Position numbers and translations under genes: made by a program
Origin: Chloroflexota bacterium
GTDB lineage: Bacteria > Chloroflexota > Limnocylindria > Limnocylindrales > CSP1-4
Direction of reading: 5' to 3'
Assembly (NCBI GenBank): GCA_027364875.1
Contig: DAHXON010000033.1
Location: 260-34,445 of the forward strand
Length of the DNA stretch: 34,186 bases
The notes under the pieces: model-generated
Told to the model about the DNA's origin: nothing
Database searches by the model: none
The model's input: only the letters and a program-made list of their open reading frames with translations
Part shown: piece by piece, positions 2,224-32,225 of the stretch
Position numbering within the stretch: position 1 is the first letter of the stretch
How the letters are laid out: every line of letters begins with the position of its first letter

Positions 2224-4236
2224 ATGGATAGTCCGTCAGCCGGCACCCCGGCACGCGCGATCGCCGGCCTCGCCGCGCTGCAGGACCTCACCGTTCTGCT
2301 CGACGGCATCGAGGACCTGCGGGCGCAGCGGCCGGTATGCAGACAAGTGCTCGAGGCTCGGCGGAAGCTCCTCGGCGCCGATCACCCCACCACCATCGAA
2401 GTGGAAGCGCGCCTCGCCGCGATAGCGCTGGACCTGGGCGAGCATCAGGTTGCGCGAGACGCGTACACGGTTCTGCTGGAACGTTCCGAGCGTGTCTTCG
2501 GCCCGCGCAACCTCGAGACGCTCGCCGCCGCGCATGGCCTGGCCGTTGCCCTGTCCTACATGGACGAGCCGGCCAAGGCTCGGCCACTCTACGAACGGGT
2601 CCTGGCCGGCCGGAAGAACGCCATGGGTCAGGAGGATCCCGCCACTCTGGCGGTGATGCACAACCTCGGCCTGACGCAGCGGGCACTCGGCGAGAACGAG
2701 GCCGCGCGGCTCGTCTTCGAGCAGCTGCTCGAGATCCAGCGCCGGACGCTCGGCCCGGAGCATCCGAACACGCTCCGGACGATGACCAACCTCGGCAACG
2801 TGCTGAACTCCACGGGCGACTTCACCCGGGCCTGCGAGGTGCTAGCTGAACGAGTCGATCGCAGCCGGCGCGTCCTCGGCCCGAACCACGCCGACACCCT
2901 GGACGCCATGCTCTGCCTGGCCGAGGCGCTCGTCGGCGAAGGCGACAGGGCCTCCGGTCGAGCCCTCGCCGAGCAGGCGCTCGCCGCCTCGATCTCGACC
3001 TACGGCCAGGATTCGGCCGAGACCATCCTGGCGATGACCGTCCACAGCCGGCTGCTCCTCAAGCTCGGTGACGCCAGGGCGGCCACGACCGCCTACCGGA
3101 ACCTGTTCGACAAGCTGACCCGGCTGCGAGGTCCCGAGGACGTGGCCACGCTCGACGCGCTGGCCGGGCTGGCCGACGCGATAGGACGCTGCGGCGACCA
3201 CAAGCGAGCCCACGACCTGGACATCCAGCTCCTGGACCGGCGCCAGAAGCTCCTTGGCGCGGAGCATCCGGCAACTCTCTGGGCGGTCGGCGATCTGGCC
3301 TGGAACATGGAGCAGCTGGGCGACCTGAGTGGCGCCGCGGCACGCTTCGCCGAGCTGACCGAGGCGCGAGCGCGCGCCCTCGGCCCGGACGAGCCCGACA
3401 CCGTCTGGGCGCTCCAGGGCCTGACCCGCGTCCTGACGAAGCTCGAATCGCACACTGACGCACGCTACGCCTATGCCCGCCTGCACGAAACCCAGGATCG
3501 ACGCCTGGGCGCCCACGCCGACGAGACCCTCGACGCGCTCCGCGGCCTGGCCTGGGAGCTGAGCAAGGTCGGCGAGCTCGACGAGGCCCAGCAATGCTGG
3601 CGCCAGCTCGTCGACACTCACGAGCAGATCCACGGACCCAAGGACGAGCGCACGCTGGACAGCCTGGTCTGGCTGGCCGAGTCGCTGCAGGAGACGGGCG
3701 ACGTCGAGCAGGCTCGCGCCATCTCGGAGCGAATCGCCGGTCCCCTCGGCCGGCTGTACGCGAGCAGCTGCGAATCGCTCGGTGAGGACGATCTCCGGAC
3801 GCTCAACATGGCCCACGGCCTGGGCCTGACTCTGGAGAGGCTCGGCCAGCTCGAGTCGGCCCGCACCACCTACCAGAGCGCCCACGATTCCTATACCCGT
3901 GTCCAGGGCAGACGCGGCCGCGCCGTCGCCGATCTGCTCGGTCACCTCGGCGACGTGGCCCGCAAGACGGGCAATCCCCAGGCCGCTCACGAGCTCTACG
4001 GCGAGGCGCTTGCGATCCTCCGCAAGGATCCGGGGCCCGAGGACCCCGACACGCTGGAGATGATCAGCCGCGACGCCACCGCCCTGCTGGACATGGGCAA
4101 GAAGATCGCGGCCAAGAACCAGGCTCGGGTCGTGGTGGACGGCTTCCGCCGCACCCTCGGCGAGGACAACGAGCTCACCCAGCGCGCCCGCAATCGCCTG
4201 GAGGCGATGTCGACGGGGCGCCGGCGCGGGCTGTAG
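2224..4236 (+). CDS. Kinesin-light-chain-type tetratricopeptide repeat protein, about 15 units
   Basis: This 670-residue protein consists almost entirely of a roughly 42-residue repeat of the TPR_10/TPR_12 (kinesin light chain) kind. Each unit carries an LG..HP.TL junction followed by a helix pair: for example LGADHPTT, FGPRNLETL, MGQEDPATL, LGPEHPNTL, LGPNHADTL, and so on to LGEDNELT near the C-terminus. I count about 15 junctions; the thirteenth (VQGRRGRAV) is degenerate. Such arrays form superhelical protein-binding scaffolds. No enzymatic domain, signal peptide or membrane helix is visible; in other bacteria these arrays are often fused to NB-ARC or kinase modules, but here the array stands alone. 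I chose the ATG at 2224 because AGGAGA lies upstream at about 2211 (13 bases, rather long); an in-frame TTG at 2182 would add 14 residues lacking repeat character. The partner is unknown. Confidence 0.88.
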   Translation: MDSPSAGTPARAIAGLAALQDLTVLLDGIEDLRAQRPVCRQVLEARRKLLGADHPTTIEVEARLAAIALDLGEHQVARDAYTVLLERSERVFGPRNLETLAAAHGLAVALSYMDEPAKARPLYERVLAGRKNAMGQEDPATLAVMHNLGLTQRALGENEAARLVFEQLLEIQRRTLGPEHPNTLRTMTNLGNVLNSTGDFTRACEVLAERVDRSRRVLGPNHADTLDAMLCLAEALVGEGDRASGRALAEQALAASISTYGQDSAETILAMTVHSRLLLKLGDARAATTAYRNLFDKLTRLRGPEDVATLDALAGLADAIGRCGDHKRAHDLDIQLLDRRQKLLGAEHPATLWAVGDLAWNMEQLGDLSGAAARFAELTEARARALGPDEPDTVWALQGLTRVLTKLESHTDARYAYARLHETQDRRLGAHADETLDALRGLAWELSKVGELDEAQQCWRQLVDTHEQIHGPKDERTLDSLVWLAESLQETGDVEQARAISERIAGPLGRLYASSCESLGEDDLRTLNMAHGLGLTLERLGQLESARTTYQSAHDSYTRVQGRRGRAVADLLGHLGDVARKTGNPQAAHELYGEALAILRKDPGPEDPDTLEMISRDATALLDMGKKIAAKNQARVVVDGFRRTLGEDNELTQRARNRLEAMSTGRRRGL

Positions 4237-4325
4237 CTCTCTAGCCTCGGCCAGACGGCGGCCCACCTGCCGGGCATAACCGTCGACCGGAAGGCGTCTC
4301 ACGGGCGCCCGGCTAGAGTCGCCCT

Positions 4326-5045
4326 ATGGAGCGGCTGGCCGTCGCCTGTCTGAACGAGGAGATCCTGCTCGCGGCCACGAACGAGCTGGTTTCGCGCGAC
4401 GCGGACCTTGCCGGGATCGTCGAGCGCTTCGGGCCGCCCCCGTTGTGGGCTCGACCGCCCGGTTTTCCGACGCTCGTGCAGATCATGCTCGAACAGCAGG
4501 TCTCGCTGGCTTCGGCCTTCGCGGCGTTCGACCGGCTCCGCGCCGCCGTCGATCCGTTTACCCCGGACGGCTTCCTCGGCCTGAACGACCACGAGCTTCT
4601 CGTCATCGGGTTCAGCCACCAGAAGGCGAGGTACGTGCGGGGGCTGGCTCGGGCGCTGACGACGCGGAGCTTCGACCTCGAACGGCTCGCGACGCTGCCC
4701 GACGAGGAGGTCCACCGTGAGCTGGTCGCGCTCATCGGCGTCGGCCCGTGGACCGCGAGCATCTACATGATGGAGGCGCTGCTCCGTCCCGACGTCTGGC
4801 CCGTTGCCGACATGGCTCTCGTTGCCTCCGTTGCGCAGGTCAAGGGCCTCGACCGCAGGCCGGGTCCAACCGAGATGGAGGCCATAGGCCAGGCCTGGCA
4901 TCCCTGGCGGTCCGTGGCGGCACGGCTGTTCTGGCACGACTACCTCGGTCGGAGAGGCCGGTCTCTGACCGCGCCGGAGGTGGCGCCGGATCCGAGCATC
5001 GAGGCCGCGACCAACTCCACTCCGGCAAGAGGGACCACGACGTGA
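4326..5045 (+). CDS. DNA-3-methyladenine glycosylase, HhH-GPD family (AlkA-like)
   Basis: The 239-residue protein has the helix-hairpin-helix/GPD fold of alkylbase glycosylases, which excise methylated purines and start base excision repair. Visible landmarks are IMLEQQVSLASA (residues 53-64, the opening helix typical of the family), the hairpin LIGVGPWTA (136-144), the catalytic Asp162 in RPDVWPVADMAL, and the closing AWHPWRSVAARLFW segment. The spacing of about 18 residues between PWTA and the Asp matches the short AlkA-like branch that lacks the N-terminal beta domain of E. coli AlkA. After residue 210 the tail is low-complexity. No convincing Shine-Dalgarno precedes the ATG, so the mRNA may be leaderless. 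Its last four bases overlap the GTG of the next gene (GTGA), implying translational coupling with a membrane protein of unknown role. Confidence 0.87.
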   Translation: MERLAVACLNEEILLAATNELVSRDADLAGIVERFGPPPLWARPPGFPTLVQIMLEQQVSLASAFAAFDRLRAAVDPFTPDGFLGLNDHELLVIGFSHQKARYVRGLARALTTRSFDLERLATLPDEEVHRELVALIGVGPWTASIYMMEALLRPDVWPVADMALVASVAQVKGLDRRPGPTEMEAIGQAWHPWRSVAARLFWHDYLGRRGRSLTAPEVAPDPSIEAATNSTPARGTTT

Positions 5046-5881
5046 CCGACGCGATCGAACCTTCCGCCGAAGGCGCCCAGGGCGTGCCGGGAGCCGAGGG
5101 TGCGGGCGTTGCGGGCGTTGCCGGGCCCGGCATATCCGGTGTTGCCGGCCCCGGCGTTACCGGCGTTGCCGACCCCGGCATATCCCGGTTGAGCGGGCTC
5201 TCGCTCGTCCGGGTGGAAGACATCCTGCTCGCGGCCTGGATCGCGCTGGCGGCGCCGCTGATCGCCCGGGCGGGCTCGTTGCGACCATTCGAGACCGGCC
5301 GTCCGGTCGAAGGCGTCCTCATCCTGGCCGGCGTGGTCGCGGCTCTCGTCTGCCTCGTCACGGGTACGTCCGACGGGGCCGCCCGGCGGCCTGCCGTCGG
5401 GGGGAGCATCGGGCCGCTCACCGGGGGCCTCCTCCTCGTCACGTTCGCCGGCTTCTCCGCGCTCGACGCGCCGTCGAACCTGGTGATGCCCATCGCCGTC
5501 GCCGGGATCGCCCTGGTCGCCCTTGTCCGCCTGCGCGTTCCGAGCCTGCCGTCGGCCGCCCGCCGGGCGCTGGTGATGCCCTTCGTTCTGATCTCTGGCA
5601 GCCTGTTCTGGGGCTTCATCGACGCCGTCATCGGGCCCGGCGGCGCGTCCGGCGTCACCGCAGGCCAGCTGCGAGATGCGCTCATTGGCGGCACTGCGGG
5701 CGCCGGAAACGTGGCGCTGGCGTTGCTGGCCTTCTCGGCCGTCTACTACGCCATGCTGGTCTACGCGCCTCGTCAGATCGCGGACGGCGAGGGCAGCCCG
5801 GTCGCCTGGCTGGCGCGCTTCGGTCTGTTCGTGGCCAGCGTTCTTCTCGGCTGGGGCTGGGTGAACGCGATCGGGCTCTGA
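5042..5881 (+). CDS. Seven-helix membrane protein of unknown function with repetitive N-terminus
   Basis: I start this 279-residue protein at the GTG at 5042, whose GTGA overlaps the stop of the glycosylase gene; the same frame is open further upstream but only as an overlap with that gene. Residues 1-50 are a Gly/Val/Pro-rich disordered head containing three tandem copies of an eight-residue unit (GVAGPGIS, GVAGPGVT, GVADPGIS). From residue 57 seven hydrophobic segments can be traced, starting ILLAAWIALAAPLIA and ending VASVLLGWGWVNAIGL at the very C-terminus. I see no transporter or enzyme motif and no charged residues inside helices beyond an Asp in the fifth (FIDAVIG). I do not recognise the family. 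Overlap with a DNA glycosylase gene suggests co-expression, not a shared pathway. Confidence 0.75.
   Translation: MTDAIEPSAEGAQGVPGAEGAGVAGVAGPGISGVAGPGVTGVADPGISRLSGLSLVRVEDILLAAWIALAAPLIARAGSLRPFETGRPVEGVLILAGVVAALVCLVTGTSDGAARRPAVGGSIGPLTGGLLLVTFAGFSALDAPSNLVMPIAVAGIALVALVRLRVPSLPSAARRALVMPFVLISGSLFWGFIDAVIGPGGASGVTAGQLRDALIGGTAGAGNVALALLAFSAVYYAMLVYAPRQIADGEGSPVAWLARFGLFVASVLLGWGWVNAIGL
5114..5185 (+). repeat. Three tandem 24-bp coding repeats
   Basis: Units at 5114-5137, 5138-5161 and 5162-5185 are each exactly 24 bases and differ at a few positions; they keep the reading frame and encode GVAGPGIS, GVAGPGVT and GVADPGIS. Units one and three are closest to each other. This is the kind of repeat that can change copy number by slippage without breaking the gene, altering the length of the flexible head of the membrane protein. 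Confidence 0.9.
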
Positions 5882-5925
5882 GTCCCGCCTCGCCCGGCGC
5901 CGGCTCGCCTCCGGCCGGCCCCGGC

Positions 5926-6882
5926 CTATCCGGCCACGCGGTGGGCCGTCATCCCCTGGCCGTCGAGCGAAACCGTGAGCGAGTCACCAACGACCCAGGC
6001 GCTGGTGGCCTGGTCGCGCCCGTTCAGAGCGTCGAGGTGGAGCTGCCCGGCCGAGTCCACGGACCAGTGGCCGTCGCGGGTACCGCCCATTGGCAGGGCC
6101 AGGGTCGCGGTTCCACCGGCCTTGAACGTCACCTTCGTCGGGCCGAGCTGCCAGGTCCCGAGAATCGCTTCGGCGAGGGGCCGCGGATCGCGCTGGTCCG
6201 GAGCGGGCGGCTGAACGTTGCGCGGCTGGAGGAGGGCCTTCTCGGCGTTGCCGAGAGCCTCCATGGTCGCCCGCGCCTCGGCAGCCTGGACGGAGTCGTG
6301 AGACCGCATCGCCGTTAATGCGCCGGTCAGGGTCTCCATCGGCGATTCGATCGCCCCCGCCGGCAGCGGCCGATCCGGCAGGTGTTCGAGGTTCACCACG
6401 TGCTTGCTCTGGGGCAGGTAGTACACCTTGAAGATGCCGGCATCGGGGATCGCCTCGTAGGCCGTCTCCCAGATCTCGAAACGGTGCCTGTCGACCTCGA
6501 TCAAGTGGGTGGACATCGACGAGGTCCTTGACTCGGAGTGCACGACCCACTTGGTGATCGCGCCTTCAACGGACTGCACCTTGCTGCCGTGGAGGTCTCG
6601 CGTCAGGGCATCGCCCGCGGAGGTGGATCGGTAGAGGAAGAACAGCACGACGGCGAAGCAGGCCGCCGGAAAGCCGTAGTGGAGGAGAGGCGGCTTGCTG
6701 GAGTCGACGCCGAAGAGGACGACCAGACCCATCACCGCGAAGATGAAGGAGCCCGTGAACTCGTTCTTGCGGTCGGCTCGAGCGACTCGCCCGAGGCGCT
6801 GCCTCTGATCCTGGGTCAGCTGACCCGCGCGGTTGGCTTCGAGCGCGTCGGCCGGAAAGGGTAGTGACGTCGCGACAGACAT
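5926..6882 (-). CDS. Two-helix membrane protein with lipocalin-like C-terminal domain, unknown function
   Basis: The 318-residue product starts at an ATG preceded by AAGGGG with 7-base spacing. Residues 12-40 (EANRAGQLTQDQRQRLGRVA and following) are a charged helix resembling the 'N.G.LT..Q...L' motif that opens several actinobacterial and Chloroflexi membrane proteins. Two transmembrane helices follow (about 44-60 and 68-85), then a soluble domain, a Glu/Ala-rich helix at about 205-220, and a C-terminal beta-rich domain (from about residue 242) starting GTWQLGPTKVTFKAGG and containing GHWSVDSAGQLHL. That pattern (G.W......tf...G....) resembles lipocalin-like or heme/lipid-binding barrels that measure departure from a baseline sequence. 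Function cannot be assigned. It is transcribed alone, convergent with the upstream membrane gene 44 bases away. Confidence 0.7.
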   Translation of the reverse strand: MSVATSLPFPADALEANRAGQLTQDQRQRLGRVARADRKNEFTGSFIFAVMGLVVLFGVDSSKPPLLHYGFPAACFAVVLFFLYRSTSAGDALTRDLHGSKVQSVEGAITKWVVHSESRTSSMSTHLIEVDRHRFEIWETAYEAIPDAGIFKVYYLPQSKHVVNLEHLPDRPLPAGAIESPMETLTGALTAMRSHDSVQAAEARATMEALGNAEKALLQPRNVQPPAPDQRDPRPLAEAILGTWQLGPTKVTFKAGGTATLALPMGGTRDGHWSVDSAGQLHLDALNGRDQATSAWVVGDSLTVSLDGQGMTAHRVAG

Positions 6883-21937: not shown

Positions 21938-22028
21938 AAGCGCCCAGGCGCCGACTCAGCCCGACGAGACACAGAAGACAGACGAAACCATGAACCAGCG
22001 TCCAAGCAGAGCCCAGAGAGGTGCAGGA

Positions 22029-25000
22029 ATGACTTCAGCGGCCGGCACGACTCGCGTCCCCGTCATGGCCGAGGGGGCTGAAGAAGCCACAGGCGCCGCG
22101 GGCGCCACCGCCACTGCCGCGGGCGCCACTTCCACGCCCGCCACGAGCGCCACTGCCACGCCCGCCACGGCCACCGCCACTGCCCCGGCCACTCCCACCG
22201 CCACCTCTCCGGACTTCGCCGCCGCCATCGCCGCCGCCGCCCAGCCCATGCTCCCCGACGGCCGCTTCACCGGCAAGGGCGTCCCCGGCCTCCACTTCCC
22301 CCGCCGCTGGACCACCGCCGGCATCCATCCCTACGACCAGGTGGTGTGGGAAACCCGGACCGCGAGCATCGGCAACGAGTCGGGCAAGGTCGTGTTCGAG
22401 CAGAAGGACGTGGAAGTTCCCGCGTTCTGGAGCCAGCTCGCCACGAACGTCGTCGTCAGCAAGTACTTCCGCGGGCACGTGGGCCACGAAGGCCGCGAGA
22501 CCAGCGTCCGCCAGCTGATCGACCGCGTCGTCAACACCATCACCGCCTGGGCGGAAACGCAGCACTACTTCGCCACGCCGGAAGACCTCTCCGCCTTCCA
22601 CGACGAGCTGACCCACCTCATCCTCCACCAGAAGATGAGCTTCAACTCGCCCGTGTGGTTCAACGTGGGCGTCGAGGCGCACCCGCAGTGCAGCGCCTGC
22701 TTCATCAACTCGGTCCAGGACTCCATGTCATCGATCATGGATCTCGCCAAGACCGAAGCGATGCTCTTCAAGTTCGGCTCGGGCGCCGGCAGCAACCTCT
22801 CCCCGCTCCGCTCCTCCAAGGAGAAGATGTCGGGCGGCGGCACCGCGTCCGGCCCCGTCTCATTCATGCGCGGCTACGACGCGTTCGCCGGGGTCGTGAA
22901 ATCGGGCGGCAAGACCCGCCGCGCGGCCAAGATGGTCATCCTCGACGTCGACCACCCGGACATCGAGGACTTCATCGAGTGCAAGGCCAAGGAAGAGAAG
23001 AAGGCCTGGGCACTGATCGAGCAGGGCTACGACGCCAGCTTCACCGGCGAGGCCTACGGTTCGGTCGCCTTCCAGAACGCCAACCATTCCGTCCGAGTCA
23101 CCGACGAGTTCATGCGCGCCGTGGTCGCCGACGGCCCGTGGACCACGCACGCCGTCGTGGACGGCCGGCCCATGGAGACCATCCCCGCCCGCAAGCTCTT
23201 CAGCGCCATGGCCGAGGCGGCCTGGGTCTGCGGCGACCCCGGCATCCAGTACGACACCACGATCAACGACTGGAACCCCGTCGCCAACAGCGACCGCCAG
23301 TACGCCACCAACCCGTGCAGCGAGTTCTCGTTCCTCAACGACACGAGCTGCAACCTCGCCAGCCTCAACCTCATGAAGTTCGTGGGCGAGGACGGCGAGT
23401 TCGACGTCGAAGCCTTCCGGTACGCCGCGCGGCTGACCATCACCGCCCAGGAGATCCTGGTCGACAACGCGGGCTACCCCACTCCCAAGATCACCGAGAA
23501 CTCGCACCGATTCCGGCCGCTCGGCCTGGGCTACGCCAACCTCGGCGCGCTGCTGATGAGCCGCGGCCTCGCCTACGACTCCCCCGACGGCCACGCCTAC
23601 GCCGGCGCGATCACCGCGATCATGACCGCGGAGGCCTACCGCCAGAGCGCGGTCATCGCCCGCGACCACGGCGGCCCCTTCGTCGAGTACAAGAAGAACG
23701 AAGAGCCGTTCCTGCGCGTCATCGAGAAGCATTGCGACGCCGCCCATTCGATCCCGGAGAAGTCCGTGCCGGCGGACATGCGCCGCGCTTCCCGCGAGAT
23801 CTGGTCCGAGACCCTCGAGCTCGGCCGCGCCCACGGCTTCCGCAACGCCCAGACAACCCTGCTCGCGCCTACCGGCTGCCTGGTCGGCAACAGCCTCGTG
23901 CTGACTGACCGTGGCCTGGTGAGGCTACGCGGCCTGGCCAATCCGAACGGAAGCCAGTGGCAGAACCTCGACGACCTGCACGTCGCAACGGACGACGGCC
24001 CGCAGAAGGCGACTCGCTTCTTCCTCAACGGCGCCGAGCCGGTCGTGACCGTCGAGACCGTGCGCGGTTACCGGGTTCAGGGCACGACGACTCACCGGAT
24101 CAAAGTCCTCGACGCGGAGGGCAACTGGGTCTGGCGCCGCTTCGCGGACGTCAGGGCCGGCGATCGAGTCCCGATGATGCTCGGCGGCATGATCGGCGAG
24201 CCTCGAGAAGTGCCGCTCCCGCCGCTGCCCGAGGCCTACTGGACCTCCGACTACCGAACATCCGTCCCGCGGCGGATGACGGCGGACCTGGCCGAGCTGA
24301 TCGGCTACTTCATGGGCGACGGCTCGCTCCACTCGAAGGGCCTGCGCTTCTGCGTTACGGACGGCGACACTGACGTGGTCGACCGGATAGTCAACCTGGG
24401 CCGAGATCTCTTCGGCCTGGAGGCAGCGGTCACGCAGCAGCAGGGATACAAGGAAGTCGCGCTCAACTCAGTCCGGCTGGTGATGTGGTGGGAAGCCTGC
24501 GGGTTTGCCAAGCACTCGCCGGATCCGGAAGGCGCGCACCGCGGCAAGGGCTACGAACCGGACATTCCCGACGCGGTCCTCTACTCCAACGATCCGGCCG
24601 TCTACCGCGCATTCGTGCGCGGTCTCTTCGAAGCCGATGGCAGCACGAACAACGGCTACGCCTCGTTTTCGACCGTCTCGGAGCGCTTCAGCCGCGACAT
24701 CCAGACGCTGCTGCTGACGCTCGGCTTCGTAACGACCCACAAGATCGATCAGCCGAGCTTCGGACACCTCGGCGCCAATCCGGTCCACGTCGTCCGGATC
24801 CTCAACGCCAGCTCCGCGGGCCGCTTCCTCGCCGAGATCGGCTTCATCTCCGAGCGCAAGCGCACCGCCCTCGCACGCACGGACGCGCAGCAGGCCGCCC
24901 GTTACGACCTCGTCCCGATCAGCCGCGGAACGGTGGATCGGCTGGCCCCCGAGAACGACCACCTCCGCAAAACGATGCTGCTCTCCCTCTCGCGCACCGG

Positions 25001-26606
25001 CCTGGTCTCACGCCGTTCCGCGACCGCCCTCCTCGAGCGCACGGCGGATCCCGAGCTCGCCAATGCCCTCAACTACTTCTACGACGAGATCGCCAGCGTT
25101 GAGCTCGGCGAGGAGCAGCTGACGTACGACCTCTCGGTCCCCTCGAATGTCACCTACGTGGCCAACGGCTTCGTGAGCCACAACACCATCGCTTTCATGA
25201 TGGATTGCGATACCACCGGGATCGAGCCCGACATCGCCCTCGTCAAGTACAAGAAGCTCGTCGGCGAAGGCTTCCTCAAGATCGTCAACAACACCGTCCC
25301 GGGCGCCCTGCGAAAGCTCGGCTATTCGGCCGCCCAGGTCGATGCCATCGTCGCCTACGTCAACGACCGCGAGACGATCGAAGGCGCGCCGGAGCTCAAG
25401 CCCGAGCACCTTTCGGTCTTCGACTGCGCCTTCAAGCCGATGAACGGCACACGTTCCATCCATTACATGGGCCACCTGCGGATGATGTCGGCGGTCCAGC
25501 CGTTCCTCAGCGGCGCCATCTCCAAGACGGTCAACATGCCCGAGGCCGCCACCCCCGCGGAGATCGAGTCGGTCTACCTCGAGGGCTGGAAGATGGGCCT
25601 CAAGGCGATCGCGATCTACCGCGACAATTCGAAGCGCAGCCAGCCGCTCTCCACGGGCAAGAAGAAGTCCGGCTCCGCTGCGGACGCCGAGGCCGAGGCC
25701 GCCCTCACCGCCCCGATTGCTGCCGCCGTCCCGGCCGAGCCCAAGCCGTATCGCAAGCGCCTCCCGGCCGAACGCCAGGCGATCACTCACAAGTTCGACA
25801 TCGCCGGCCACGAGGGTTACATCACCGTCGGCCTCTACGAGAACGGCCAGCCGGGCGAGATCTTCCTCAAGATGGCCAAGGAAGGCTCCACGATCAGCGG
25901 CCTCATGGACACCTTCGCGACCACGGTCAGCGTCGCCCTCCAGTACGGCGTGCCGCTCCACGACCTGGTCTTCAAGTTCGCCCACGTCCGCTTCGAGCCG
26001 TCGGGCTTCACCTCCAACCCGGAGATCCCGATCGCCAAGTCGATCATCGACTACATCTTCCGCTGGCTCGGCTCGCGCTTCCTGCCGCCGAGCGACCGCG
26101 CCGCCCTCGGTCTGGTCGACCGGTCGGCGACCGCGGAATCTTCTACTCAGCCCCTGAGCTTCGGTTTTGGCGGCTCCTCCGGAACCACCGGTGGCGCCGG
26201 GACCTCGGGGAGCGCCGAATCGCCGGCCGCGCAACCAGCTTCTCCATTCGGGGAAAATGCGGCCTCGTCGGACAGCCCTGAAGGGCCGGCCTCCTCACCC
26301 GCCACCGCAGTGGCAGCTCCCGGCTCCGAGCCCGTTTCACAGCCGCCCGCCAGAGAGTCCTCAGGGCCAAGTGCCAGCGCCGGCTCCGGCTACGCCTCCG
26401 CCGGCGCCTCGCCGAGCTCCAACGGCAACGGCAAGCCCCGAGTCACCCTCGGCAGCATCGGCCTCGGCAGCAACATCGGCAAAGCCCAAGTCACCTTCAG
26501 TGCCCAAGCCGACGCCCCCAGCTGCGCCGACTGCGGCTCGATCATGGTCCGCAACGGCAGCTGCTACAAGTGCCTCAACTGCGGCTCCACGAGCGGCTGC
26601 AGCTGA
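22029..26606 (+). CDS. nrdJ: Class II (B12-dependent) ribonucleoside-diphosphate reductase with an intein
   Basis: The precursor is 1525 residues from the ATG at 22029, which has GAGAGG seven bases upstream; an ATG at 21990 would add 13 residues. After removal of the 436-residue intein the enzyme is 1089 residues. It makes deoxyribonucleotides using adenosylcobalamin. Visible parts are the redox Cys pair QCSACFIN (Cys221/224), AGSNLSPLR, ATNPCSEF with the thiyl-radical Cys430, DTSCNLASLNL, APTG/TIAFMMDCDTTGIEPD after splicing, a TSCPAD-type domain (ERQAITHKFDIAGHEGYITV), and a C-terminal zinc-ribbon-like CADCG...CYKCLNCG tail that likely reduces the active site. The first 60 residues are Ala/Thr/Pro repeats and a long Ser/Gly/Pro linker precedes the ribbon. 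The NrdR-like site upstream suggests control by NrdR. Confidence 0.95.
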   Translation: MTSAAGTTRVPVMAEGAEEATGAAGATATAAGATSTPATSATATPATATATAPATPTATSPDFAAAIAAAAQPMLPDGRFTGKGVPGLHFPRRWTTAGIHPYDQVVWETRTASIGNESGKVVFEQKDVEVPAFWSQLATNVVVSKYFRGHVGHEGRETSVRQLIDRVVNTITAWAETQHYFATPEDLSAFHDELTHLILHQKMSFNSPVWFNVGVEAHPQCSACFINSVQDSMSSIMDLAKTEAMLFKFGSGAGSNLSPLRSSKEKMSGGGTASGPVSFMRGYDAFAGVVKSGGKTRRAAKMVILDVDHPDIEDFIECKAKEEKKAWALIEQGYDASFTGEAYGSVAFQNANHSVRVTDEFMRAVVADGPWTTHAVVDGRPMETIPARKLFSAMAEAAWVCGDPGIQYDTTINDWNPVANSDRQYATNPCSEFSFLNDTSCNLASLNLMKFVGEDGEFDVEAFRYAARLTITAQEILVDNAGYPTPKITENSHRFRPLGLGYANLGALLMSRGLAYDSPDGHAYAGAITAIMTAEAYRQSAVIARDHGGPFVEYKKNEEPFLRVIEKHCDAAHSIPEKSVPADMRRASREIWSETLELGRAHGFRNAQTTLLAPTGCLVGNSLVLTDRGLVRLRGLANPNGSQWQNLDDLHVATDDGPQKATRFFLNGAEPVVTVETVRGYRVQGTTTHRIKVLDAEGNWVWRRFADVRAGDRVPMMLGGMIGEPREVPLPPLPEAYWTSDYRTSVPRRMTADLAELIGYFMGDGSLHSKGLRFCVTDGDTDVVDRIVNLGRDLFGLEAAVTQQQGYKEVALNSVRLVMWWEACGFAKHSPDPEGAHRGKGYEPDIPDAVLYSNDPAVYRAFVRGLFEADGSTNNGYASFSTVSERFSRDIQTLLLTLGFVTTHKIDQPSFGHLGANPVHVVRILNASSAGRFLAEIGFISERKRTALARTDAQQAARYDLVPISRGTVDRLAPENDHLRKTMLLSLSRTGLVSRRSATALLERTADPELANALNYFYDEIASVELGEEQLTYDLSVPSNVTYVANGFVSHNTIAFMMDCDTTGIEPDIALVKYKKLVGEGFLKIVNNTVPGALRKLGYSAAQVDAIVAYVNDRETIEGAPELKPEHLSVFDCAFKPMNGTRSIHYMGHLRMMSAVQPFLSGAISKTVNMPEAATPAEIESVYLEGWKMGLKAIAIYRDNSKRSQPLSTGKKKSGSAADAEAEAALTAPIAAAVPAEPKPYRKRLPAERQAITHKFDIAGHEGYITVGLYENGQPGEIFLKMAKEGSTISGLMDTFATTVSVALQYGVPLHDLVFKFAHVRFEPSGFTSNPEIPIAKSIIDYIFRWLGSRFLPPSDRAALGLVDRSATAESSTQPLSFGFGGSSGTTGGAGTSGSAESPAAQPASPFGENAASSDSPEGPASSPATAVAAPGSEPVSQPPARESSGPSASAGSGYASAGASPSSNGNGKPRVTLGSIGLGSNIGKAQVTFSAQADAPSCADCGSIMVRNGSCYKCLNCGSTSGCS
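23877..25184 (+). mobile_element. Intein with LAGLIDADG homing endonuclease, in the ribonucleotide reductase gene
   Basis: The 436-residue intein is inserted after Gly616 of LLAPTG, between Gly and Thr of the highly conserved LAPTG|TIAFMMDCDTTG. It opens with the nucleophile Cys (CLVGNSLVLTDRG, block A), carries block B with the TxxH motif (VQGTTTHRIKV, His73 of the intein), two dodecapeptide motifs of a LAGLIDADG endonuclease (LAELIGYFMGDGS at 138-150 and AFVRGLFEADGS at 245-256), block F (YDLSVPSNVTYVANG) and block G ending FVSHN, with Thr as the first C-extein residue. Because the endonuclease motifs are intact, the element may still home. The flanking extein reads through correctly if the 1308 bases are removed. 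Confidence 0.95.
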
Positions 26607-26626
26607 TCGCCACTATCGAACGGCCG

Positions 26627-26635
26627 TGCTAAAAT
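26627..26635 (+). promoter_or_regulatory. Extended -10 promoter for the methyltransferase gene
   Basis: TGCTAAAAT is a TGn extended -10 element (five of six bases match TATAAT). It lies 34 bases upstream of the methyltransferase ATG and 21 bases after the nrdJ stop. No good -35 is visible, as is common with extended -10 promoters. AGG at about 26658-26660 is the only Shine-Dalgarno-like site. Confidence 0.55.
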
Positions 26636-26669: not shown

Positions 26670-27575
26670 ATGGTCCTTGCGGAACCGCTCCCCATGGTCG
26701 AGCTTCCAGAGCCCCAGACTTCACCCACTTCGCACGTCCTGCGGCTCGGCGACGCGCGTGGACTGGACTGGCTGCCGGATGGGTCCATCCATCTCTCGGT
26801 GACATCCCCGCCGTACTGGACGCTGAAGAAGTACAACGACCATCCAGATCAACTGGGCGATCTCGCCGACTACCAGGGTTTCCTGGATGAGCTGGATAAG
26901 GTTTGGAGGCACGTCTTCCGAGCACTGGTTCCCGGCGGCCGACTTGTTGTCGTAGTTGGTGATGTCTGCCTATCTAGGCGCAAGAACAGAGGCCGCCACC
27001 AGGTCATTCCTCTCCATGCCGATATCGCCGTCAGGGCTCGCAGAATAGGTTTTGACTATCTGACGCCGATCTACTGGCAGAAGATTGCCAACGCGAGCTA
27101 CGAAGTCGAGAGAGGGACCGGCGGCGGGTTCCTGGGAAAACCCTTCGAGCCAAACGCCGTCATCAAGAACGACACCGAGTACATCCTCTTCTTGCGAAAA
27201 CCGGGCGGCTATCGCAAGCCGACGGACGACCAACGTCGCCGCTCCAAGATGACTAAGGAAGAGCACGCACTCTGGTTCAGGTCGATCTGGACAGACGTTC
27301 CGGGCGCCTCGACGCGAGACCACCCGGCCCCATTTCCGCTTGAGTTGGCGAACCGTCTGGTCCGTATGTTCAGCTTCGTTGATGACACGGTCCTGGATCC
27401 CTTCCTCGGCACGGCCACCACGAGCCTGGCTGCGATCCGAGCAGGTCGCAACAGCATAGGTGTCGAGATAGACGAGCACTACCTCGCTCTGGCAGAGGCA
27501 CGCATCCGGGCGACCCTGGATCAGATGACGCTATTCGATTCCGAGGGCCCCTCGTTCTCAGTTGTGAAACCCTAG
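26670..27575 (+). CDS. DNA methyltransferase, beta class, probable N4-cytosine or N6-adenine
   Basis: The 301-residue enzyme has the beta-class order, with the catalytic motif before the cofactor motif. Motif IV is SPPYW (residues 46-50), and motif I is LDPFLGTATTSLAA (about 242-255) with the following NSIGVEIDEHYL (X/II). SPPY points to N4-cytosine methylation, although some N6-adenine enzymes share it. It methylates the recognition site and so protects host DNA from the partner nuclease, the most likely partner being the PD-(D/E)XK protein at 27572-28348. The genes converge and their stop codons interlock in one CTAG at 27572-27575. Sampled GC is lower than in flanking genes (52% in one 60-base line), suggesting transfer. 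The specificity is unknown. Confidence 0.9.
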   Translation: MVLAEPLPMVELPEPQTSPTSHVLRLGDARGLDWLPDGSIHLSVTSPPYWTLKKYNDHPDQLGDLADYQGFLDELDKVWRHVFRALVPGGRLVVVVGDVCLSRRKNRGRHQVIPLHADIAVRARRIGFDYLTPIYWQKIANASYEVERGTGGGFLGKPFEPNAVIKNDTEYILFLRKPGGYRKPTDDQRRRSKMTKEEHALWFRSIWTDVPGASTRDHPAPFPLELANRLVRMFSFVDDTVLDPFLGTATTSLAAIRAGRNSIGVEIDEHYLALAEARIRATLDQMTLFDSEGPSFSVVKP

Positions 27576-28348
27576 TTTCGCTCAAGGTACAGCCGACAGA
27601 TCCGATCGAGGAACCACTCGTAGCTGAACGGCTCGCCCGGCACCGGCCCGGGATCACAATCGACCAGCTTCGCGGTCGGCGTGACTCCGTCGTAGCTCAC
27701 GACCAAGATGAGGGGCGCTTCACAGCGCCCAATTGGATCTTCAGGCCCTGACCTCAGGCGCATCGACCGAAACAGATCGATTGTCCTACGCGCGGCCGCC
27801 GGAGGGTTCGTACCGGAGGACTTCGCAGATCGGGCGAACTCATCCGGGTTTCGATAGGCGAGTGCAGCGTTGATGATGATAGTGAACGCTGCGATGGTCC
27901 CCGGAGACGATCGGTGTACGTGTTCGGCAAACGCCCGAGCGTCATTCCATCGATTCGTTCGAGCCTTTCCGTGCGCGGTCATGATCGTCTTGTTCTCGAT
28001 CGCGATCGGAGCGGCGAGACCCTGCCCCGTCATCCCCCAACCTGTGCGCAGCACAACGCCGTCGACATTCGGATCGACATCGCCGTCCTCGCCTTCGTTG
28101 TTGCTGGCTGCCGCCAATGCGGCCGACAGCGTGTGGCGTTGGCCGTTCAGACCGACGTTGTGTTTCAGTTCGAGCTGCATCGTCGCGAATTCGTCGTCGA
28201 TGCGTGGGCATCTGAGTCTTAGGTCGGCCACAATGCAGGACGTCAAGTAGTCCGAGTGAGCCTGACCTCGTGGATTGAAGCCCACGTGCGTGTTGATCCA
28301 TTCGACATAGCATTCAGGCGCCAGCACTAGCCACTCCCATGTACCCAT
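27572..28348 (-). CDS. PD-(D/E)XK restriction endonuclease-like protein
   Basis: The 258-residue protein starts at the ATG at 28348. The probable active site is Asp96 in VDPNVDGVVL, then Glu118 and Lys120 in PIAIENKTIMTAHGKART: a D-x21-ExK arrangement of a type II restriction-like fold. The ENK.IMT.HGKAR.NR... stretch is a pattern I associate with restriction enzymes encoded beside N4-cytosine methylases; this is recollection, not a search. The C-terminal half has alternating strands and helices ending in FLDRICRLYLE. It is the last gene of the three-gene operon: it follows the HEPN gene by 20 bases and converges on the methylase. The likely role is cutting unmodified DNA; it may also need the DUF262 and HEPN proteins. 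The cleavage site is unknown. Confidence 0.75.
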   Translation of the reverse strand: MGTWEWLVLAPECYVEWINTHVGFNPRGQAHSDYLTSCIVADLRLRCPRIDDEFATMQLELKHNVGLNGQRHTLSAALAAASNNEGEDGDVDPNVDGVVLRTGWGMTGQGLAAPIAIENKTIMTAHGKARTNRWNDARAFAEHVHRSSPGTIAAFTIIINAALAYRNPDEFARSAKSSGTNPPAAARRTIDLFRSMRLRSGPEDPIGRCEAPLILVVSYDGVTPTAKLVDCDPGPVPGEPFSYEWFLDRICRLYLERN

Positions 28349-28368
28349 TGCCTCTACGAACGCGCACC

Positions 28369-29055
28369 CTATCTCGTGCTCAGGAAGAACTGTGGTCGCG
28401 AAGAGCTGCGCTCAACGCGCCTGATGAAATCCATCCATCTGGCCTCCCAGAGGTCAACCAGGCTTAGCAACTCCTGTCTCGTGTAGCCTCGACCTATTTC
28501 GTCGGGTGTCCTTCGACCGTGCGCCACCGCGTTTCGCTCATCCACGATTGAGTCAAGTCGGTCCCACGCCTCTCGAAGGACAGGCTCAGGCTCGCCCAAC
28601 CCAAATACAGTACAGAAAGAGACAACCTGAGGGCGCCTCATATGCGATCCGTCGTCCGGGAACCAATCGCTGCTGATCGTGCACGAGCGCGAGTCTTGGA
28701 GGGTTGACACAATCTCCAGGCCCTGCATCGGCCGCACCCTCGCACCAGGTGTGTCCTTCGCCGACTGGAGCGCCTTGAAAACCGCGGAAACCTGGAAACC
28801 GGGCTTCAGATGGCGATTCCCAGCCCCCATCTGCCTTGCAGTGTCGAGCAAGCCCCGTGCGAGAGCGCGCAAAAGGTTCTCGTAAGCCCCGTATAGGAGG
28901 ACTATGGCCAAGCCGCGCGCCTCGCGTGAAACGTCGGGCGGCGCTGGCGCGGCAGGAGGGTCTGAAAGCACCGGAGAAGGGTCAGTAGCTGCGAGGATTG
29001 CGCGAACGCGGGTCATCCGATCCTGGAACTCGAGTCGATACGGCTTGCAGTCCAA
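28369..29055 (-). CDS. HEPN-domain ribonuclease (MAE_28990-like)
   Basis: The 228-residue protein has a helical layout. Its catalytic signature is the R-x4-H motif, Arg174 to His179 in DERNAVAHGRRT, typical of HEPN RNases, which act as toxins that cut tRNA or mRNA in many defence and toxin-antitoxin systems. An early amphipathic helix with IVLLYGAYENLLRALARG (51-68) matches the MAE_28990/MAE_18760 group of HEPN proteins, known to lie next to DUF262 genes; here DUF262 ends two bases upstream. The start is probably the TTG at 29055; an ATG at 29016 with AGGA close upstream would shorten it by 13 residues. The RNA target and activator are unknown. A toxin role kept in check by DUF262 is inference. 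Confidence 0.8.
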   Translation of the reverse strand: MDCKPYRLEFQDRMTRVRAILAATDPSPVLSDPPAAPAPPDVSREARGLAIVLLYGAYENLLRALARGLLDTARQMGAGNRHLKPGFQVSAVFKALQSAKDTPGARVRPMQGLEIVSTLQDSRSCTISSDWFPDDGSHMRRPQVVSFCTVFGLGEPEPVLREAWDRLDSIVDERNAVAHGRRTPDEIGRGYTRQELLSLVDLWEARWMDFIRRVERSSSRPQFFLSTR

Positions 29056-29057
29056 GG

Positions 29058-30146
29058 CTATCGCCCCAAGAATCGGTGCCGACAGAATTCGACACGGCCC
29101 CGGACACGAGTTCGACTGTTCGTGCCCCCGGTCGTCATTCGTCGTAATTCATCAGACTGCAGCCAAGTCATCTCCTGGGGCGGGGCGAGGTCAGGCCTCT
29201 CTTGGAGCGCCATAGCGGCGCCGACAGACACGGCCTCAAACAAATTGACGGGGGTTATCGTTCCGTGCGGGTTTCTCAGGCCCTCGGGGAAGCATTCAGC
29301 CAGGAAGCGGAATGTCCTAGCGAAAACGGTCGTGCGGCCAGGGACGTCAGGATCTTGAGTGGCATCGGCCGTGAAACCGTTCAGGAAGTCCTTCACAGAA
29401 TGCTCAAACGTGATGTATCGCTCCAGGAAGGCGAAGAACCGGAGGACGAACTCCTCTGGAGTGCCGTCTTTGGATCGCGTCTCCGGGACTCGCACCACGG
29501 TCTGGAAATCGGGCGATGAAGTGAGCTCTCCCAGCAGCTCGATGAAGTCCCCCCGGAAGACACATTCCCTGATCTCCTGGGCGGTCAGTGACACGCCGCC
29601 TGTGTTGAGCCTTTCGAAGAGATCGAACCTTACCTGCAGGTCGCTCTTGTCGTTGAGAACGACCACTTTCAAGGGGCGATCCTCCAGCGCAGTCTGAATG
29701 TCGCTGGGCAAGTCCTCGAAGAAGGCTCCCTCGAAGCTGGTGAGCTTGTCCAAATCGGTCAGTCGAAGCGGCGCCGTCGTCAACTTCGCCGCCTGTCTGA
29801 CATCGGGGCTACCGACAAAGTTCGCCAGCGTCAGCAGGCGCTGGAGGCCATCTACGACCTCCCATTGGTCCGGCTGATTCGGCGTTTGATTCGTGGCCAT
29901 GAATAGCGGCGGGACTGGAATGCCCAACAGGACCGATTCCACAAGGCGGGACTGGCGCTCTGGATCCCACCTGAATTGACGTTGATAGATGGGTGCTATG
30001 TCGATCCTGTGGGATCGGACCCGTCGGAGAAGTTCATCAACGGTAACGTCATACGAGTCGAAGTCCACCTTTCGCCGCTGTTCTGACAGCTGACTTCGTT
30101 GTCGTGCAGATGGTCCTTCGTCCAACTCCAAGTCCTCCCTAGGCAT
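29058..30146 (-). CDS. DUF262 (GmrS/ParB-like NTPase fold) protein
   Basis: The 362-residue protein starts at the ATG at 30146 (an adjacent TTG would add one residue). DUF262 signatures are YQRQFRWDPERQSRLVES (54-71), IPVPPLFM, the ParB-type nucleotide motif DGLQR (99-103; commonly DGQQR) and FERLNTGGVSLTAQEIR (177-193). This domain is found in GmrSD, BrxU and SspE-like restriction factors, where it binds or hydrolyses nucleotides and controls a nuclease. Those proteins usually carry a DUF1524 HNH domain after it; this one ends instead in a helical tail of about 150 residues with no HNH residues, so any nuclease would be supplied in trans by the HEPN protein (2-base spacing) or by the PD-(D/E)XK protein. 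It is first in the operon. Function is inferred. Confidence 0.85.
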   Translation of the reverse strand: MPREDLELDEGPSARQRSQLSEQRRKVDFDSYDVTVDELLRRVRSHRIDIAPIYQRQFRWDPERQSRLVESVLLGIPVPPLFMATNQTPNQPDQWEVVDGLQRLLTLANFVGSPDVRQAAKLTTAPLRLTDLDKLTSFEGAFFEDLPSDIQTALEDRPLKVVVLNDKSDLQVRFDLFERLNTGGVSLTAQEIRECVFRGDFIELLGELTSSPDFQTVVRVPETRSKDGTPEEFVLRFFAFLERYITFEHSVKDFLNGFTADATQDPDVPGRTTVFARTFRFLAECFPEGLRNPHGTITPVNLFEAVSVGAAMALQERPDLAPPQEMTWLQSDELRRMTTGGTNSRTRVRGRVEFCRHRFLGR

Positions 30147-30400
30147 CAATGCCCTGTCTCGGCCCTAGCGTGTCTCTAAGTATGGCGCGCGGATGTCGTC
30201 CCCCATCCCTGTATCGGCCCGATGCCAACGCCATGGTGAGCATGAGTAGGAGGCTGACTACCTCACGAGGTGGACCGCCCTGAGGCAGACGCTCATGGAC
30301 TCTGGCGACGGAGCGAGCGTTCGGCTGGGGCCGTTCGCACCTTCGCCAGCTCTTCCACTACCCGCATTCGTCATGACTCCGATTCCGGGTTCGTCACGCC

Positions 30401-31174
30401 TCATTGGCACTCTGGCCGCATCGTGGCCTTGATCAAGCCCACCACCTCGGCATCGGTGGCCGAGTAGTCGGTCTGTCGACGGAGTTGCTTCCGAACCGCG
30501 GTGACGACCGCCTCTGACGTCAGGACTCGGGCGATTGCCTTAGGGGACGTGGCGCACTTGGCCTTCCAGACTTCGTCGATCACCTTGTGCTTAATGCCCT
30601 CGCGAGTGATCGCGAACAGGCGATCGACCTTCTTCGCCGGCGGCTCCGGACCGAGAAGGTCGACCTCGAAGACGAGCTCGACGGTCAGCGGCAGGGCCGC
30701 TTCCAGGTGGTAGACCTGCCACTGGGCGCCGTTGGTCAGCATCAACCACTCGATGCCTTCATTGGCGCCGTACTGCTCGACCTGGCGCAGATGCCTCTCG
30801 GCGAGCTTGGTGGTGACCCGCTTGACCTCGATCAGGGCGACGAGCTGCTTGTCCACCCGCAGGCCGTAGTCGGCGAATTCGCCCTTGGTCGAGAACTCGG
30901 CCGTGAGGTCGGAGAACTTGTCGTAGCCGAGCCCTTCGCAAAGGAAGTCGGTCACCAGGAACCTGGTGTCGGCCTCATTTACGTCTCGGGCGATGAAGTC
31001 GGCGAGCGGCTTGGCGAACCTCTTGATGCCGAGCTTCACCCGCTCACGGGAATCCGCTTCCCACTTGGGCACCTTGGGCCCTGACGGTGGAATCGGCGCG
31101 GCCGACTTGACGGGTTCCGTGACAGGCGGAGGCTCGGTGGCGATCCTCGGCTCAGTCGGTCCGTTCATGGTCAT
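30401..31174 (-). CDS. Predicted restriction nuclease resembling HsdR N-terminal / COG2810 proteins
   Basis: The 257-residue protein starts at an ATG with AGGGAG close upstream. After a Pro-rich head (1-40), residues 65-155 form the nuclease core: DTRFLVTDFLCEGLGYD, then Glu93, ADYGLRVD with Asp102, ALIEVKR with Glu116 and Lys118, and QVEQYGANEGIEWLMLTNG (132-150). This is the form of HsdR-type N-terminal nuclease domains and of COG2810 proteins predicted to be type IV restriction enzymes that cut modified DNA. No helicase domain follows. The gene is 250 bases upstream of the DUF262 gene, same strand, and has host-like GC (68% in one line), unlike the island. It may be an independent defence gene or a housekeeping nuclease; its role with the island is uncertain. 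Confidence 0.75.
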   Translation of the reverse strand: MTMNGPTEPRIATEPPPVTEPVKSAAPIPPSGPKVPKWEADSRERVKLGIKRFAKPLADFIARDVNEADTRFLVTDFLCEGLGYDKFSDLTAEFSTKGEFADYGLRVDKQLVALIEVKRVTTKLAERHLRQVEQYGANEGIEWLMLTNGAQWQVYHLEAALPLTVELVFEVDLLGPEPPAKKVDRLFAITREGIKHKVIDEVWKAKCATSPKAIARVLTSEAVVTAVRKQLRRQTDYSATDAEVVGLIKATMRPECQ

Positions 31175-31205: not shown

Positions 31206-32225
31206 TCACTGGCGTCTCGTGTTCGCTGCTCCGCTTCCCAGTTCGTCCCTCGTCAGGACCACCAAATCGCCGTCCCATTCCGGAACGAACAACCGGCCGT
31301 GCCAGTAATCCATGCTGCAGATGCGGGGCAGGTTGAGGCGGAACGGGTCGGTCACGGTGGGGGCGGTGCGGAGGCCCGGGACGGGGTCCGGGCGGCCGGC
31401 GATCGTGCAGATGACGTTGGTCGCTCGGTCGATCATCCGGACGACGTGGTTCTGCGTGTCGCCGACGAAGATGTTGCCGGCCTCGTCCAGGGATAGCGAC
31501 CAGGGACCGCCGAAGTACTCGCTCGGGTCGCCGCCGAGGGTCGCCGAAAGCGCGTCACGGCCGTCGCCCGAGTAGCCGGGCTCGCCGGTGCCGACGACGG
31601 TCGAGACGACGCGCCGCTCGAGATCGAGCTTCTTCACCATGAAGTTCATGGCGTCGAGGACGTAGATGTTCCCGTCCGGACCGCGCCGCAGATCGAAGAT
31701 CCAGCTGAACCGCGCTTCCTCGAACGGGACGGGGTCGACCTGGCGGCCGGGGCCGGCTGCACCGAGGGTCTGGAGCGGCTCGCCCGCGGGGCTGAACTGC
31801 CAGACGCGCCCGCCTTCGACCTCGTTGAGCCAGAGATTGCCGTCTAGGTCGAACTCGCAGTTGCCGACGTCCTTCATGCCCAGCGCCCTGCCGTTGATCA
31901 GGACGGACGACCGCTTCTGCTCGAGGTCGATGTCGAACACCGAATTGCCAGCCAGGCAGGCGACCAGCGTCCGCCCGGCAGGCGTGACGGTCACGTAGCC
32001 CGGGCCCTTGAGATCGGCATCGATGTGCAGGTCGCTCTCGGGGATGGGAGTCGGGCCGGCCGACCAGCGCAGCCGATCGCCCTCGCCCAGACAGCCCACC
32101 CAGTTCGCGTCGAAATCCGCGACATACTGGCGGCCGGCCAGATCGTGGAAGCCGAGATGGGCGTATCCGCTCCCCCACCGGCGGCCCGGCGGGAAGTTGA
32201 CGATGCGCTCGATCGTCCAGGCCAT
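31206..32225 (-). CDS. NHL-repeat beta-propeller protein
   Basis: The 339-residue soluble protein shows repeated blade motifs of the NHL/SMP-30 kind: LWLNEVEGGRVWQFSPAG, IYVLDAMNFMVKKLD, then IFVGDTQNHVVRMID with following TIAGRP, typical of NHL blades, plus GTGEPGYSGDGRDALSATL. About five or six blades can be traced, the early ones degenerate. There is no signal peptide, so it is probably cytosolic or co-exported. Such propellers bind proteins, RNA or small molecules; function cannot be assigned from sequence. It is last in a minus-strand operon behind the membrane protein, whose reading frame overlaps it by 235 bases, an oddity treated in the findings. The start is the ATG at 32225, one base after a TGA in the alternative frame. 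Confidence 0.8.
   Translation of the reverse strand: MAWTIERIVNFPPGRRWGSGYAHLGFHDLAGRQYVADFDANWVGCLGEGDRLRWSAGPTPIPESDLHIDADLKGPGYVTVTPAGRTLVACLAGNSVFDIDLEQKRSSVLINGRALGMKDVGNCEFDLDGNLWLNEVEGGRVWQFSPAGEPLQTLGAAGPGRQVDPVPFEEARFSWIFDLRRGPDGNIYVLDAMNFMVKKLDLERRVVSTVVGTGEPGYSGDGRDALSATLGGDPSEYFGGPWSLSLDEAGNIFVGDTQNHVVRMIDRATNVICTIAGRPDPVPGLRTAPTVTDPFRLNLPRICSMDYWHGRLFVPEWDGDLVVLTRDELGSGAANTRRQ

Follow-up and report, generated by a model that had tools for sequence, protein, structure and literature searches.

Methylase, candidate nuclease, HEPN and DUF262 genes in one block behind nrdJ: a probable layered defence cassette in an uncultured Chloroflexota bacterium

When a restriction-modification pair lies beside a putative RNA-degrading pair, do the two form a single system or separate layers of defence? 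We addressed this question for a stretch of 34,186 nucleotides from an uncultured Chloroflexota bacterium (assembly GCA_027364875.1, contig DAHXON010000033.1, positions 260 to 34,445; hereafter the window), where genes for a methylase, a nuclease, a HEPN protein and a DUF262 protein form one tight, foreign-looking block. The initial annotation had described this block as a composite module in which the four parts are coupled. On balance, we favor the view that it is a layered defence cassette, located at a restriction-modification hotspot behind nrdJ.

All four open reading frames were recovered on the strands initially described. The methylase gene (26670-27575, plus strand, 301 residues) and the nuclease gene (27572-28348, minus strand, 258 residues) lie tail to tail and their stop codons overlap by 4 bases (27572-27575), an overlap shared by the congener G001 and by several pairs of the nuclease family that stand alone. 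The genes of the HEPN protein (28369-29055, 228 residues) and of the DUF262 (GmrSD_N) protein (29058-30149, 363 residues) are on the minus strand as well. On that strand the order is DUF262, a gap of 2 bases, HEPN, a gap of 20 bases and the nuclease, exactly the spacings and shared stop bases previously claimed. Because the gaps are this short in the window and amount to 4 and 48 bases in G001, we consider that they suggest a single transcript for DUF262, HEPN and nuclease. Gene order and gaps also support the earlier view of the nuclease as third gene of a DUF262-HEPN operon. The listed DUF262 frame starts with TTG at 30149, whereas the initial annotation used an ATG at 30146, so that the aspartate of its DGLQR motif is D100 from the TTG start and D99 from the ATG start.

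The methylase and the nuclease resemble a type II restriction-modification pair, as had been suggested. The methylase matches the Pfam family N6_N4_Mtase (E = 7.6e-39) and the PDB entry 2zie, a putative modification methylase (E = 2.9e-107), and would represent the modification half of the pair. It carries the motifs TSPPYW and DPFLGT, from which we take it to be a DNA methyltransferase of the beta class. Its motif I (27396-27422) reads FLGTATT, where the usual form is FxGTGTT. This does not imply that the enzyme is inactive, because the same glycine is missing in three of 25 other methylases that we compared (L038, L033 and L030). For the nuclease, neither Pfam nor PADLOC nor NCBIfam gave a match at E-values up to 1, and six of its residues (D96, E118, K120, H126, K128 and H145) were invariant in 20 of 20 aligned rows. 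The arrangement D96...E118-x-K120 is of the PD-(D/E)XK kind, and this conservation indicates that the protein is probably a nuclease of that type. Judged by sequence alone, an endonuclease with a catalytic motif thus adjoins the methylase.

We further analyzed the family of this nuclease. Its 20 aligned relatives yielded one stray match in Pfam (one member; 0.064) and matches to three PADLOC families, each through a single member, of which a type II enzyme scored best (0.0039), and a profile of seven members matched none of the PDB sequences. A scan of genome contigs, excluding the window's own record, gave 38 loci of the family, and a methylase was found within 467 bases of the nuclease in every one of them, mostly overlapping or abutting it. 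These methylases comprise 24 of the window's kind, seven N6 methylases (similar to that of L013) and seven 5-methylcytosine (5mC) enzymes. Since methylases of three kinds constantly accompany it, the nuclease is probably a type II restriction enzyme, and the window's methylase would be its probable cognate. Among 400 Chloroflexota genomes searched by profile, seven contained the family, including that of the window and with a weak match in G414 (1.8e-4), and no relatives were found on plasmids or in the viral contigs searched.

The other two proteins form a recognizable pair. The HEPN protein, a predicted ribonuclease, matches HEPN_RiboL-PSP (Pfam; 6.3e-8) and presents the R-x4-H motif reported earlier, as R174-N-A-V-A-H179; R174, N175, A178, H179 and G180 are invariant in 15 of 15 alignment rows. 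A looser alignment of nine rows left R174 and A178 alone invariant, with the row of L128 misplaced off its own RNYIVH. Relatives of this protein were found in two of the 400 genomes of the phylum sample, one being the window's, and none was found on the plasmids searched. The DUF262 protein matches GmrSD_N (7.3e-27) and no other Pfam family at E-values up to 1, which agrees with its description as a DUF262 protein without HNH. Its residues D100, G101, Q103 and R104 are invariant in all eight aligned rows, and it matches NsnA (2.2e-65) and PD-T4-2_A (3.8e-40) in PADLOC.

These features suggest that the pair resembles the defence pair PD-T4-2 and may share its function: DUF262 is followed directly by HEPN after 2 bases, and both the DGxQR motif (DGLQR) and the HEPN motif R-x4-6-H (RNAVAH) are intact. 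In the sections consulted, PD-T4-2 is described as a DUF262 protein, presented as an NTPase, with a HEPN protein of PF18735 (PMC10952713), and its deletion in ECOR65 raises the plaquing of T4 (PMC9519451). PD-T4-2 protects against T4, and those sections of the two papers name no methylase for it (PMC9519451, PMC10952713). The window shares with it the PD-T4-2_A match and a HEPN of PF18735, but its operon includes a third gene, for the PD-(D/E)XK-type nuclease, and a methylase gene converges on it. Two other identities were rejected. The pair is not a GmrSD type IV restriction enzyme, as no DUF1524 (HNH) domain accompanies GmrSD_N. Nor is the DUF262 protein a true Nsn protein, as its partner is a HEPN protein and not the DUF3696-type ATPase that, judging from the loci we read, would define Nsn; no related paper was found among the matches listed under the name NsnA.

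Do the two halves of the block travel together? The initial annotation had called for co-conservation of all four genes and had stated that independent occurrence of the halves in most relatives would make the block a chance adjacency. The profiles of DUF262 and HEPN matched only one of the 38 methylase-nuclease loci (L046, which belongs to G001). The pair was not found at the other 37, with five of the 38 covering less than 1.5 kilobases (kb) upstream of the nuclease. A GmrSD_N gene is present in 11 of the 24 genomes with a methylase-nuclease pair of the window's kind, G001 included; excluding the long candidates, the six short ones outside G001 showed no HEPN partner, two of them without a downstream frame. 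Across the 21 genomes of the genus, the methylase was found in four (one a distant match at 36%) and GmrSD_N genes in seven, paired with HEPN in the window's genome (G000) and in G001 and unpaired in G008, these three being the ones read for a partner; the other four genomes have frames of 581-1171 residues. Stand-alone pairs such as L018, L021 and L040 are similar to the window's in having a related, convergent methylase and nuclease with overlapping stops, but no DUF262-HEPN was found in the sequence they cover. These results indicate that the halves are mostly separate, largely the outcome that the initial annotation had named as refuting its reading, so that an obligate composite is not supported, although the same four-gene order does recur in a second genome.

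The site itself offers a context for such stacking. nrdJ was found in 16 of the 21 genomes of the genus, and our reading covered 15 stretches on its 3' side in 14 other genomes. Restriction or defence-like genes are present in seven of these stretches (six genomes): Eco57I-like methylases in G020, G002 and G003 (contig C140), a D12 methylase in G011, an nSTAND3/Mrr protein in G012, a caspase protein in G004, and a related methylase with an unclassified candidate nuclease in G003 (contig C88). This last methylase is 63% identical to the window's over most of its length, and no DUF262-HEPN was found at its locus behind nrdJ. The seven stretches of G006, G008, G009, G014, G015, G017 and G018 were judged by eye: G015 resembles G012 and nothing was recognised in the rest. 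The 3' side of nrdJ is therefore likely a hotspot for defence or restriction-modification genes, which raises the prior probability that two systems were stacked there.

Some features of these surroundings can be noted. In the window, the class II ribonucleotide reductase gene (nrdJ; 21990-26606) includes an intein that holds a LAGLIDADG domain. A promoter-like site precedes the methylase (26607-26635, plus strand; spacer of 17 bases, TG ahead of the second hexamer) and is weak, the consensus scan having found one such site against 1.0 expected in shuffled sequences. On the other side of the block, an HSDR_N-like protein is encoded at 30401-31174 (PF13588; 1.2e-7). Because an HSDR_N-like gene also lies behind nrdJ in G007 and G020, where the cassette is absent, we consider it a resident of the site and not a fifth member; in G007 it directly follows nrdJ together with an ion channel gene. 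The candidate nuclease of G003 (L188, 5097-5822; 241 residues) has no Pfam match at E-values up to 0.001, and the same genome carries a second copy of nrdJ on another contig, with the Eco57I-like methylase behind it.

The second genome with the four-gene order, G001 (L015/L046), belongs to the same genus. At the same site behind nrdJ it carries the four genes in the window's order and orientation. The identity of the parts is very uneven: 82% for the methylase, 29% for DUF262, 25% for the nuclease and 21% for HEPN. The nuclease of G001 is of a different type and its DUF262 falls in a different clade. Over residues 20-235 the two methylases are 90% identical. The same region of the window's methylase is 73-77% identical to seven of 13 methylases that accompany G001-type nucleases, 58-63% identical to the other six, and 63-73% identical to ten methylases that accompany the window's type of nuclease. 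A recombination breakpoint inside the methylase, considered for the fall from 90% to 66% in the C-terminal part between G000 and G001, was rejected, as the regression across the family predicts 62%. The simplest reading that we infer is that the minus-strand operon of nuclease, HEPN and DUF262 was exchanged beneath a retained methylase.

Base composition sets the block apart in both genomes. With the window and L015 as the only backgrounds, the guanine-cytosine (GC) content of the window's block is 0.598, whereas the lowest value among 476 other, overlapping stretches of equal length is 0.658; the G001 block has 0.591, below the minimum of 0.660 in 126 stretches of L015. In G001 the island has its sharpest edges at 2815 and 6382, close to the limits of the genes (2954-6316). 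The island of the window has its left edge at 26588 and a less clean right edge, because the strongest rise of GC-content, at 31291, lies past the HSDR_N-like gene.

We then considered DUF262-HEPN pairs elsewhere. The scan of viral contigs for DUF262 used the best 80 of 249 loci and was biased by its query, whose rows were all HEPN-paired; HEPN accordingly follows DUF262 in 78 of the 80. The exceptions are L200 and L205, the latter with an interrupted DUF262 frame and a HEPN gene after it. With methylase models limited to the 5mC, beta, gamma and HsdM-like kinds, 48 of the 80 loci have a methylase no more than 200 bases from the pair (43 convergent after HEPN and five ahead of DUF262), and three of the loci counted as having none end early. 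None of the 18 loci whose DUF262 is closest to that of the window (L200-L217, one of them incomplete) showed an adjacent methylase of these kinds; D12-type proteins were seen by eye 2-3 kb away in L212 and L216. The DUF262 tree (86 rows) gave the same picture. The window falls in a set of 16 rows (98/93) whose 15 other members have no modelled methylase adjacent, and G001 in a set of seven (99/99) whose six other members have none either, whereas a separate clade of 43 rows (100/99) includes 36 with a 5mC methylase. A viral scan with the clade of G001 gave five loci, three with a HEPN-like gene next and no adjacent methylase and two incomplete. The nearest relatives of both pairs thus showed no methylase of the modelled kinds beside DUF262-HEPN.

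A conserved module of three genes, DUF262, HEPN and a convergent 5mC methylase, occurs in 43 of the 80 viral loci (L218-L278), and the literature searched offered no description of this module beyond one table line: Table 1 of PMC3710099 lists the MAE_28990 HEPN as 'In operon with a ParB nuclease and DNA methylase genes', and the Ribo L-PSP-HEPN with 'operon with ParB'. The window resembles the MAE_28990 type in having DUF262 and then HEPN with a methylase, which in that type is often convergent. It differs in that the methylases of that type match the 5mC model and the window's DUF262 lies outside the clade that carries 5mC methylases; the window's nuclease family was not found at those loci, the search having been made for this family of nuclease.

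In a sample of 60 Chloroflexota loci with DUF262, where HEPN-like partners were chosen by eye from their motifs, the next gene is HEPN-like in 19. Three of these 19 pairs have a methylase directly beside them (L126, L128 and L129, all N6_N4_Mtase in Pfam), and in L134 a methylase lies about 2.9 kb away. L295 also has an N6_N4_Mtase protein beside DUF262-HEPN, the HEPN of L128, L129 and L295 being identified by motif only. In L295 (141-3113; G039, same family), the N6_N4 methylase, DUF262 and an RNFYAH protein without a Pfam match form one overlapping operon. L126 (3685-7293; G085, same class) carries a methylase-Mrr-like fusion, followed by an interrupted DUF262 and a RiboL-PSP HEPN, and is probably an isolated case, with the four parts arranged differently. 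It was not counted as a third case: none of 62 other loci with a related methylase has DUF262-HEPN adjacent, several of them having short flanks and L373 a DUF262 fragment about 4 kb off.

DUF262 was matched in 138 plasmid records, from which we chose 23 regions to read, two of them (L313 and L317) without annotation. An annotated HEPN follows DUF262 in 13 of the 21 annotated regions. Seven of these 13 pairs have a 5mC methylase next, and four have no methylase, XhoI-family enzyme or HNH protein. The pair on a Corynebacterium atrinae plasmid has an XhoI-family enzyme and an N6 methylase 440 bases on, and a Hymenobacter plasmid (L318, 3449-6114) presents DUF262, a RiboL-PSP HEPN and a convergent HNH endonuclease. 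In the other eight regions the partner is DUF3696 in four, hypothetical in three (L065, L321 and L324) and not listed in one; the partner in L065 aligns with HEPNs. In L321 (Enterococcus faecium) and L324 (Cetobacterium), Eco57I-type restriction-methylase genes lie beside DUF262 and an unclassified partner without a Pfam match. A vsr gene is next to the DUF262-HEPN-methylase locus of a Rhizobium.

How would a layered cassette operate? The methylase would protect the sites of the host and the nuclease would cut unmodified incoming DNA. As a second, PD-T4-2-like layer, the DUF262 protein, which in relatives is a sensor that binds nucleoside triphosphates, may detect infection or a DNA-modification cue and release the HEPN ribonuclease, which would cut RNA and halt the infected cell. 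The nuclease gene, as the last of the DUF262-HEPN operon, would probably be co-transcribed with this second layer. Each layer should work alone, and their joint retention would reflect a back-up role of the second for the first. In the sections consulted of PMC12839542, HEPN ribonucleases are described as back-up effectors in BREX-related systems.

Several observations weigh against two independent layers. The same order and orientation, found twice with such different parts, should not often arise from independent stacking, and the low-GC island spans all four genes in both genomes. Moreover, 36 of the 43 rows of the other DUF262-HEPN clade come with a 5mC methylase and 48 of the 80 viral loci have a methylase adjacent, which argues that DUF262-HEPN can be coupled to modification.

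A first alternative, which we regard as unlikely but worth weighing, is a composite similar to PrrC in which DUF262-HEPN guards the restriction-modification pair. The intact pair would keep HEPN silent, and phage anti-restriction, lost methylation or DNA breaks would lead DUF262 to activate HEPN, with degradation of RNA. The initial annotation had likewise proposed lost modification or DNA cleavage as a possible trigger. This reading gains from G000 and G001, which share the gene order and have methylases that are 82% identical while the other parts differ, as if the operon had been swapped as a block, and from the GC island across the four genes in both genomes. DUF262-HEPN also lies beside unrelated methylases (5mC; N6_N4_Mtase in L128, L129 and L295; XhoI-family with N6 in Corynebacterium atrinae), and already in 2013 the text consulted of PMC3710099 reported that 16 or more clades of HEPN are linked to restriction-modification systems and suggested a PrrC-like coupling. 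According to the same text, PrrC/PrrI is similar to the window in having a HEPN ribonuclease gene beside a restriction-modification system, but PrrC is associated with an ABC ATPase and a type I system, whereas the window has DUF262 and a type II-like pair. Such a guard is hard to reconcile with the 37 of 38 restriction loci that show no DUF262-HEPN, with the GmrSD_N genes, present in 11 of 24 genomes with a beta-class pair (G001 included) and without a HEPN partner in the six short candidates read outside G001, and with the nearest DUF262-HEPN relatives, which have no modelled methylase adjacent.

A broader form of this coupling is one that we advance tentatively: DUF262-HEPN would be a portable, RNA-degrading second stage that docks repeatedly onto unrelated modification systems, so that failed restriction or modification leads to RNA decay and arrest, with nuclease, HEPN and DUF262 exchanged in this genus as a unit under a methylase that stays in place. 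The systems docked would possibly include 5mC methylases, N6/N4 methylases, the XhoI-family pair and the complete type II pair of the window, whose nuclease is part of the operon itself. Finally, it is improbable that two unrelated defence systems simply lie side by side in the hotspot without any functional or regulatory link. In favor of this reading, the site gathers defence genes in the genus, both halves occur alone, and the combination was found in one genus only within the searches made. Against it, two congeners with dissimilar parts share an identical order and orientation, the gaps ahead of the nuclease are operon-like (20 and 48 bases) and the low-GC island covers the four genes in both genomes.

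That HEPN genes associate with those of ParB-like proteins and methylases was already reported in 2013 (PMC3710099, in its Table 1), and no description of a DUF262-HEPN operon that includes a complete type II pair was found in the consulted parts of the open-licence literature searched. If the coupling is true, the locus would amount to a small type II analogue of PrrC, in which a breakdown of restriction leads to RNA decay through four genes, and the two congeners, with their very different versions of three parts, make this coupling testable by swapping parts. If the layers instead act independently, three findings still stand out: a restriction nuclease is encoded within the operon of a probable abortive pair, its family lacks a Pfam model, and the region behind nrdJ is a likely hotspot for defence genes.

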